A model generated the notes under the pieces. It saw only the letters and a program-made list of their open reading frames with translations. It ran no database searches and was not told the DNA's origin. From assembly GCA_019428825.1 (NCBI GenBank), contig JAHYJU010000004.1, forward strand, positions 1 to 37,257: a stretch of DNA of 37,257 nucleotides, given 5' to 3'. Position numbers and translations under genes: made by a program. This DNA is from Patescibacteria group bacterium. GTDB taxonomy: Bacteria; Patescibacteriota; WWE3; UBA101185; UBA10185. Below, piece after piece: positions 5,252-9,327 of the stretch. Numbering within the stretch: position 1 is the first letter of the stretch; each line of letters begins with the position of its first letter.

Positions 5252-5323
5252 AATATGAACATTATATCAGTTCGAATTCCCTGATGGCCTGTGTTTGGGA
5301 ATGTTGTTAGAGGAAAAAACCCT

Positions 5324-5343
5324 GGCTGGGGGACAGGGATTCG
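5324..5343 (-). repeat. duplicated tRNA-Gln 3'-end fragment
   Basis: ggctgggggacagggattcg is identical to 5499-5518 (tRNA 3' end plus two flanking bases). Confidence 0.85.
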
Positions 5344-5352
5344 CCCACTAGT

Positions 5353-5392
5353 CCAAATATCTCTACGTCGCTTTGCTCCTAGAGCTATTTGG
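5353..5392. repeat. stem-loop, 12/13 matched arms, downstream of tRNA-Gln
   Basis: CCAAATATCTCTA ... TAGAGCTATTTGG with loop CGTCGCTTTGCTCC. Confidence 0.7.
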
Positions 5393-5449
5393 CTATTGGC
5401 ACGTCTCCTTCGCTACGCTCAGTCCGACATTCTCATCCCTGTCCAAACA

Positions 5450-5495
5450 AAAGTTCCCGCTAACCTTTCATAGACTCAAGGCTAACGGGAACTTT
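5450..5495 (-). terminator. rho-independent-like terminator downstream of tRNA-Gln
   Basis: Arms AAAGTTCCCGCTAACC / GGCTAACGGGAACTTT; on the minus strand followed by TTTTGTTT. Confidence 0.75.
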
Positions 5496-5500
5496 CGTGG

Positions 5501-5571
5501 CTGGGGGACAGGGATTCGAACCCCAATTACCGCATTCAGAGTGCGAGGTCCTACCATTAGACGATCCCCCA
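5501..5571 (-). tRNA. tRNA-Gln (anticodon CTG)
   Basis: Minus strand TGGGGGATCGTCTAATGGTAGGACCTCGCACTCTGAATGCGGTAATTGGGGTTCGAATCCCTGTCCCCCAG: 7-bp acceptor, anticodon loop CTCTGAA, T-loop GGTTCGAATCC. CCA not encoded. Confidence 0.95.
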
Positions 5572-5641
5572 ATAATATAACAAGTAAATAAGTATTAAAT
5601 TTTCAAAAATTGCTAACAAACGTAATTAAATTAAATGAGTC

Positions 5642-5698
5642 TGATCGCAAGGTCCTCGAGCGAAGCGAGACGGTTCTTCCCATTAGACGATTCCCCAA
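5642..5698 (-). repeat. partial tRNA-Gln 5'-half copy interrupted by a short palindrome
   Basis: Minus strand TTGGGGAATCGTCTAATGG...[CGTCTCGCTTCGCTCG]AGGACCTTGCG compared with the intact TTGGGGGATCGTCTAATGGTAGGACCTCGC. Confidence 0.75.
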
Positions 5699-5761
5699 TA
5701 AACAAAACAATTTTACCATTTACCATTTCAACTTTCAGATTTCAGTTGATAAAATACCCCA

Positions 5762-6010: not shown

Positions 6011-6583
6011 ATGATGCCAGCACAACATAAAGAACAACGAGTAGGTGTATTTGTGGATGTACAAAATATGTATTACTCTGCAAAGAACATCTACGGATCT
6101 AAAGTAGATTTCGGAAAAGTACTTTCCGTTGGTTTAGCAGGAAGAAGGCTTGTACGTGCCTTTGCGTATGTAATTAAAGCTGACGTTGGGGCAGAGAAAG
6201 ATTTTTTTGAGGCTCTTCAAAAAATCGGTTACGAAGTAAAAGAAAAAGATCTCCAGGTATTTTTAGGAGGTTCAAAAAAAGGAGACTGGGATGTAGGTTT
6301 ATGCATGGACGTTGTAAGAATGGTTCCTAAAATAGATGCTATGGTTCTTGTCTCAGGAGACGGAGATTATACCGAGCTTTTAGAGTACGCAAGAAGCCAG
6401 GGAGTCAGAACTGAGATAATTGCATTTGGAAAAACTTGTTCAAGTAAACTTTTTAATGAAGCAGACTATATTTTGGATATGGATAAATCTCCCGAGAAAT
6501 TTTTAATCGGTAAAATATCAAAACCAAAAATTCCATTTATGAGGGACACTAATAAAGATGCTTCTGCTTCAAAAACCGAGTGA
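6011..6583 (+). CDS. NYN (LabA/DUF88-type) domain protein
   Basis: VGVFVDVQNMYYSAK, DVGLCMDVVRM, DAMVLVSGDGDYTELLEYARSQGVRTEIIAF. Confidence 0.9.
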   Translation: MMPAQHKEQRVGVFVDVQNMYYSAKNIYGSKVDFGKVLSVGLAGRRLVRAFAYVIKADVGAEKDFFEALQKIGYEVKEKDLQVFLGGSKKGDWDVGLCMDVVRMVPKIDAMVLVSGDGDYTELLEYARSQGVRTEIIAFGKTCSSKLFNEADYILDMDKSPEKFLIGKISKPKIPFMRDTNKDASASKTE

Positions 6584-8851: not shown

Positions 8852-8863
8852 GGCCCCATCGTC
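8852..8863 (+). repeat. duplicated tRNA-Glu 5'-end fragment
   Basis: GGCCCCATCGTC is identical to tRNA-Glu 8984-8995 and is fused to a palindromic segment. Confidence 0.8.
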
Positions 8864-8983: not shown

Positions 8984-9058
8984 GGCCCCATCGTCTAATG
9001 GTTAGGACGCCAGGTTCTCAACCTGGAAACTCGGGTTCGACTCCCGGTGGGGTCACCA
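8984..9058 (+). tRNA. tRNA-Glu (anticodon CTC), CCA encoded
   Basis: GGCCCCATCGTCTAATGGTTAGGACGCCAGGTTCTCAACCTGGAAACTCGGGTTCGACTCCCGGTGGGGTCACCA folds as a cloverleaf; anticodon loop TTCTCAA. Confidence 0.97.
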
Positions 9059-9185: not shown

Positions 9186-9204
9186 ACTCCCGGTGGGGTC
9201 ACCA
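9186..9204 (+). repeat. tRNA-Glu 3'-end fragment, copy 2
   Basis: ACTCCCGGTGGGGTCACCA, identical to the intact tRNA 3' terminus. Confidence 0.9.
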
Positions 9205-9273
9205 CCCGCCTTCGATAATGCTACGGCGAGGTTGCAGACCTAGATAGAACTTAATTTACCATTTTGGATTCGG

Positions 9274-9293: not shown

Positions 9294-9310
9294 TCCCGGT
9301 GGGGTCACCA
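9294..9310 (+). repeat. tRNA-Glu 3'-end fragment, copy 3
   Basis: TCCCGGTGGGGTCACCA, identical to the intact tRNA 3' terminus. Confidence 0.9.
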
Positions 9311-9327
9311 CGAAATTTCGCAACTTT

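Follow-up and report, generated by a model that had tools for sequence, protein, structure and literature searches.

The closest described counterpart of the arrangement reported here is the RtT RNA of the tyrT repeats of Escherichia coli (Rfam RF00391, sRNA rttR), tandem repeats downstream of a tRNA gene that end in the tRNA 3' end up to CCA. Each repeat starts with the reverse complement of the tRNA end, GGGGAAGGAT, followed by GAGAA; at tyrTV the order is GGGGAAGGAT, GAGAAG, an inner part and then AATCCTTCCCCCACCACCA. In older work, an rtT RNA derived from the tyrT transcript was found to affect the stringent response. Other known systems offer partial likenesses. Integrative islands of serine or tyrosine recombinases insert at tRNA 3' ends, restore the gene and duplicate the tRNA end as a direct repeat; REP/BIME palindromes are small and intergenic, with GAGCGAAGCGAG-type hairpin modules; and integron attC sites vary in sequence while keeping a folded structure whose outer arms pair.

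The window analysed here is the whole 37,257-nucleotide stretch of contig JAHYJU010000004.1 from a Patescibacteria genome of the WWE3 lineage. Its tRNA-Gln(CTG) gene carries a ∼175-bp unit with no gene on its 3' side (family A) and a second unit on its 5' side. Family A has the RtT layout, with an arm (X') complementary to the tRNA end, GAGAA and finally a tRNA 3' end, all downstream of the tRNA, and shares with it the register of helix P1 and the occurrence of tandem repeats. However, the inner part differs, RtT being without GGGGTCGA...GTGACCGA, and RtT was found only in E. coli among 14 named control genomes, at tRNA-Tyr, whereas family A sits at at least 27 tRNA species across Patescibacteria. 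The RtT covariance model scored 16 bits on the window unit and 23 bits on the best unit tried, below its cut-off of 45; the match to the window unit is full-length, on the same strand and the only resemblance found in Rfam. A search of 37 Patescibacteria genomes gave three RtT matches at E≤1, two of them family A units; one match (genome G029), having no tRNA, was taken as chance. We treat family A and RtT as the same kind of element, with family A not a member of RtT. The downstream element belongs to a previously unlisted family of structured elements which no Rfam family fits, and a search of the available literature for tRNA-flanking repeats in CPR genomes returned nothing.

The remaining systems differ more. 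The units have no integrase and cargo between att repeats, are about 175 bp long and have a conserved fold and a tRNA-matched inverted arm, while the islands found nearby are separate. Unlike REP/BIME palindromes they are fixed to tRNA T- and D-loops, with an arm that depends on the host tRNA and no Y1 link; Y1_Tnp was not found in G003, G022, G023, G024 or G025, all of which have several units. The alignment contains no GTTRRRY core of the attC type, its invariant 3' side being GTGACCGA, most genomes encode two Xer-like tyrosine recombinases and no other integrase, and the arms copy the tRNA, unlike those of attC. Rfam scans gave no group I or II match, and the intact tRNA usually lies upstream of the unit, against a self-splicing intron.

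The tRNA-Gln(CTG) locus

The features of the locus, all on the minus strand, are given below in the direction of the tRNA.

5710..5738, minus: promoter-like site CTGAAA-17-TAAAAT before the displaced 5' fragment (promoter scan and relatives)
5680..5697, minus: displaced tRNA-Gln 5' end, acceptor 5' strand and D-arm (repeat comparison)
5646..5679, minus: core of the 5' unit, GAAGAACCGTCTCGCTTCGCTCGAGGACCTTGCG, with a palindrome (also at Gln-TTG, Asn and in relative G009)
5639..5645, minus: inverted D-arm strand copy ATCAGAC, one mismatch to ATTAGAC (inverted-arm comparison)
5572..5638, minus: new leader of the TTTTTGAAAATTTA... type before the intact tRNA-Gln (type common to other 5' units)
5498..5571, minus: intact tRNA-Gln(CTG) with encoded CCA (ARAGORN; Rfam tRNA, 55.7 bits)
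5445..5498, minus: terminator-like hairpin directly 3' of tRNA-Gln, arms 5478-5498 and 5447-5467, then TTTTGTTT (inverted repeat)
5435..5444, minus: X' arm GGACAGGGAT, reverse complement of the tRNA-Gln T-stem/acceptor 3' strand (sequence, fold and covariation in 62 units)
5329..5443, minus: three-way-junction element, family A (covariance model R1, 47.5 bits, E 4e-11)
5429..5434, minus: junction J1/2, GAGAAT (alignment; GAAT invariant in the training alignment)
5353..5392, minus: stem-loop, upper part of helix P3 (fold)
5323..5343, minus: displaced tRNA-Gln 3' end, T-loop to CCA, CGAATCCCTGTCCCCCAGCCA (21/21 identical to the intact gene)

On the 3' side the tRNA-CCA is followed by the terminator-like hairpin, which a strict terminator scan did not pick up, and then by X', GAGAAT, the core and CGA plus ATCCCTGTCCCCCAGCCA. 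The original prediction had proposed an exact 20-nt copy of the tRNA 3' end at 5324-5343; the copy is indeed exact, over 21 nt. The X' arm pairs with 5331-5340 in the predicted fold. The window's copy was absent from the training set of R1, whose E-values are rough owing to a short calibration. The stem-loop pointed out at 5353-5392 is likewise real, and belongs to a larger fold that is more stable than its shuffles by 5.3 sd as RNA and 5.2 sd as DNA.

The 5' side mirrors this plan in the D-arm: the displaced 5' end is followed by a hairpin core with a palindrome, an inverted D-arm strand, a new leader and the intact tRNA. A 5'-half copy split by a palindrome had been described here. Both the 18-nt 5' copy (one mismatch to the intact tRNA-Gln in its first 16 positions) and the palindrome (CTCGAGCGAAGCGAG, 5655-5669; one occurrence in the window at ≤2 mismatches, 0.01 expected) hold up, but a palindrome lodged in a 5' half is an incomplete account, as the palindrome is the tip of the core, beyond which come the inverted D-arm copy and the new leader. 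The flanking AAGAACC/AGGACC, earlier read as a possible degenerate target duplication, proved to be part of that core: at Gln-TTG, Asn and Arg-TCT the same core has AAGAACC...AGAACC on either side of its hairpin. Other cores follow the same 5' plan at Ala, Val and Ile of this genome and in G015 and G016; the 5' units use several unrelated cores. Inverted-arm length is 8.1, versus 6.1±1.4 for fragments of other tRNAs. The 5' hairpin of the window is no more stable than its shuffles.

The relatives clarify which parts are ancestral. Orthology of tRNA-Gln was taken from a syntenic NYN-domain gene (window 6011-6583). Seven genomes (G007, G003, G017, G025, G005, G001 and G002) have apparently empty sites on both sides, and in G008, where only the upstream side was read, that side looks empty too. 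The 3' unit is present at the orthologous tRNA-Gln in this genome, G009 and G023, while in G024 inserts of 3.6 and 1.4 kb are each followed by CAGCCA, hairpin, core and tail. The promoter-like site at 5710..5738 is a single scan match where 0.8 are expected by chance, its support being conservation: it matches the TGGTAAAAT motif that precedes the intact tRNA-Gln in insert-free relatives. In those relatives TGGTAAAAT stands just upstream of the intact tRNA, and in the window it stands upstream of the displaced fragment, which indicates that the ancestral 5' end survives as the displaced piece and that the insert supplied the new leader.

A second tRNA locus with the same pattern had been claimed, and tRNA-Glu(CTC) at 8984-9058 is indeed similarly built. 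Two additional copies of its 3' end come after it (9188-9208 and 9294-9314), carrying different hairpin cores, and a short 5' fragment lies ahead of the gene near 8858. At Glu(CTC), at Glu-TTC and inside the Leu-CAA unit, a second type of hairpin, CAATTnCG...GCAAAA, is inserted between GA and the tail. The CCA of tRNAs or of displaced tails is also where a REP-like palindrome, CCACCCGCCTTCG...CTACGGCGAGG, begins (Arg-GCG, Arg-TCG and Glu; locus L040 3050-3090, L047 near 6900 and window 9205-9240).

Conserved fold and tRNA-matched arm of family A

The alignment of 22 units supports a three-way junction made of P1 (X' with the tail), P2 and P3, in which GAAT, GGGGTCGA and GTGACCGA are invariant. 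Covariation is pronounced across P1, P2 and P3, with 101 two-sided changes versus 34 in shuffles and a score of 0.367 versus 0.141 (none of 500 shuffles as high); structures slid along the alignment scored 0.05–0.09. The covariation is strong on the sense strand and includes G-U pairs, and the J1/2 and J3/1 strands covary as well (TC/GA, TT/AA or GA/GA).

Across 62 distinct units, 7.0 of 12 positions of X' pair with the unit's own tail, compared with 5.19±0.16 when tails are shuffled, and the unbroken run from the junction averages 4.7 versus 1.25; these shuffles ignore relatedness among the units. tRNA position 59 pairs with the last base of X' in 59 of the 62, with AT, GC, TA and CG all in use. 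Displaced tails match their intact tRNA at all 18 nt in 51 of 56 units, representing 27 tRNA species, and this identity extends to unpaired parts of the tail, whereas the cores differ strongly. Pairing and tail identity together indicate that both are maintained, with selection, conversion or renewal at insertion as the possible causes. In a single case (Lys-CTT, L077) X' fits the tail of the intact tRNA better than the displaced one.

Occurrence in the genome and in Patescibacteria

The genome of origin is an 842-kb assembly with 45 tRNAs, and the stretches around these tRNAs were read. A 3' copy lay within 450 bp of 17 of the 45 (15 after removal of adjacent intact tRNAs; 0.42 expected) and a 5' copy within 300 bp of 11 (10 after the same removal; 0.36 expected), the expectations coming from cross-tRNA controls. 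The 3' layout recurs at Gln-TTG, Ile, Asp, Lys (2), Ser-CGA, Arg-TCG, Leu-CAA and Pro-GGG, and at each of these loci X' matches the tRNA of that locus. The Pro-GGG unit (L043, contig C71) and its tRNA are 1.8 kb apart, with a predicted ORF of 451 aa between them. A search of the genome with R1 returned ten matches, all at tRNA ends, including the window's copy. Together with the empty orthologous sites in relatives, this strongly supports the proposal that tRNAs are targeted rather than flanked by chance. The competing expectation, that comparison with relatives would reveal decayed full tandem tRNA genes, found no support: conserved cores of unrelated sequence stand where a decayed tRNA body would follow the displaced pieces, and the tails are undecayed.

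Beyond this genome, the exact core pattern matched 11 of 27 family genomes, one of them probably by chance, and the reversed pattern matched none of the 27. R1 matched 14 of 45 genomes of the class and, at E≤1e-5, 44 of 380 Patescibacteria genomes; of 22 new loci sampled, 17 directly follow a tRNA on the same strand. tRNA-linked units occur in named Moran-, Nomura-, Adler-, Berkel- and Peregrinibacteria genomes. The R1 matches of G036, with no tRNA nearby, are likely chance, and matches in actinobacteria and Dehalococcoidia were set aside as chance on the same ground. Presence is patchy, G007 and G008, of the same genus, having no units. Tandem 3' units were seen at Tyr (L094) and Gly (L072). 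The Gln-TTG unit of this genome and the Gln-CTG unit of G009 have terminator and core in common, which indicates that the block moves between isoacceptors. The viral contigs searched contained no units, so phage carriage was not seen. An assembly artefact is unlikely, since several unit-bearing relatives are complete or curated (CP006914.1, MEWB01000001.1).

Origin and significance of the units

The explanation we regard as probable, if only just, is that these are tRNA-targeted, non-autonomous insertion units with a selected fold, two of which sit at tRNA-Gln, in the T-loop and in the D-loop. The 3' unit would have entered the tRNA at the T-loop, leaving the old tail after the core to pair with X' and close the fold, and the 5' unit would have entered at the D-loop as its mirror image. 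Each insert would replace a tRNA end together with its terminator or leader; the new end that comes with the insert, bringing a terminator or leader with it, would let the gene survive. Units may be moved or copied in trans by machinery acting on folded single strands, RNA or ssDNA, and selection would keep the pairing of X' with the tail either because the fold is the recognition structure or because the pairing keeps an extra tail harmless. We infer both the movement of the units and the way in which the arm comes to match each tRNA. X' could be templated at insertion or selected afterwards; snap-back copying at insertion would give short perfect arms.

Against the insertion reading we count that no unit has been seen moving, that the 5' cores are several and unrelated, that the window's 5' hairpin does not exceed its shuffles in stability, and that X' is often imperfect, with a mean of 7/12 positions paired. 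No transposase, integrase, reverse transcriptase or nuclease was found tracking the units across genomes, and large serine recombinases track them only loosely. RVT_1 and Y1_Tnp do not co-occur with the units, and a reverse transcriptase or Y1 transposase was rejected as partner on that basis. Two other inserts were noted at tRNAs. What lies between tRNA-Gly(CCC) and two displaced tails at locus L091 (G009:C2:1-5000) resembles a diversity-generating retroelement, with a reverse transcriptase (PF00078) and two similar proteins whose C-terminal stretches differ; the one of the two that was scanned matched no Pfam family. At L040:1001-1351 (contig C4 of this genome) a GIY-YIG nuclease ORF (PF01541, E 7e-15) lies behind tRNA-Ser(GCT) and before a displaced 3'-end copy, a possible homing-type insert.

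The main rival, which we hold to be rather unlikely, takes the 3' unit for the gene of a functional small RNA of the RtT kind, made from the tRNA transcript. X' and the tail would then pair into a minihelix that resembles a tRNA and ends in CCA, the core would be the working part, tRNA-processing enzymes would release the product and copies would spread between tRNAs by recombination. The strong sense-strand covariation with G-U pairs argues for it, as do tails that match the tRNA even where unpaired and the E. coli rtT, which has the same layout and is annotated as a small RNA; an ancient, frequently lost functional RNA would likewise account for a fold conserved between candidate phyla. Yet the tRNA and the unit are often separated by a terminator-like hairpin that leaves no space for a promoter, presence is patchy even within one genus, and the mirror-image 5' units are left unexplained.

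It is improbable, and was already disfavoured, that the units are inactive remains of integrative islands or of decayed tandem tRNA duplications, with the core as a leftover attachment site. Large serine recombinase islands do occupy the same tRNA 3' ends, and some lie between tRNA and unit. However, where an island has inserted, a short, separate piece of tRNA end precedes the terminator and core, which implies that islands entered tRNAs already carrying a unit and so came after the units; moreover, folds and tails are not decaying, and in most genomes the tyrosine recombinases are limited to a pair, probably XerC/D. The kilobase distances between several units and their tRNAs at first favoured the core as attP arm of such islands, an idea rejected on account of the same separate short tRNA end. 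As to the islands themselves, those at L101, L099, L152, L164 and L150 sit at tRNA 3' ends (Pro, Lys, His and Glu) of WWE3-type genomes; their recombinase gene runs antiparallel to the tRNA and overlaps it, except in L150, where the overlap is with the displaced tail. Least credible is the notion that repeated tails are kept as decoys taking integrative elements in place of the tRNA, for although a G022 serine recombinase gene sits in a displaced tRNA-Lys tail and not in the tRNA, and inserts follow displaced tails at G024 Gln and G009 Gly, islands are also found in true tRNAs (G003 Pro, G009 His, G015 Glu and Lys) and both core and X' pairing would go unexplained.

Returning to the insertion units, a broader version is possible but tentative: that tRNA-parasitising mini-elements are widespread in Patescibacteria, inserting in T- and D-loops with an arm templated on the host tRNA, for example by snap-back synthesis, with the E. 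coli tyrT repeats as a distant or fossil case. If this is true, every copy would be custom-fitted to its own tRNA. The present results make the long-standing oddity of E. coli tyrT/rtT a possible example of a general arrangement in which a structured element makes its closing helix with the neighbouring tRNA's own sequence. The covariance model and the dozens of loci with empty and filled sites turn the matching of the X' arm to each tRNA into a testable question. They also bear on how tRNAs are annotated and islands mapped in Patescibacteria, whose genomes commonly contain displaced tRNA ends.
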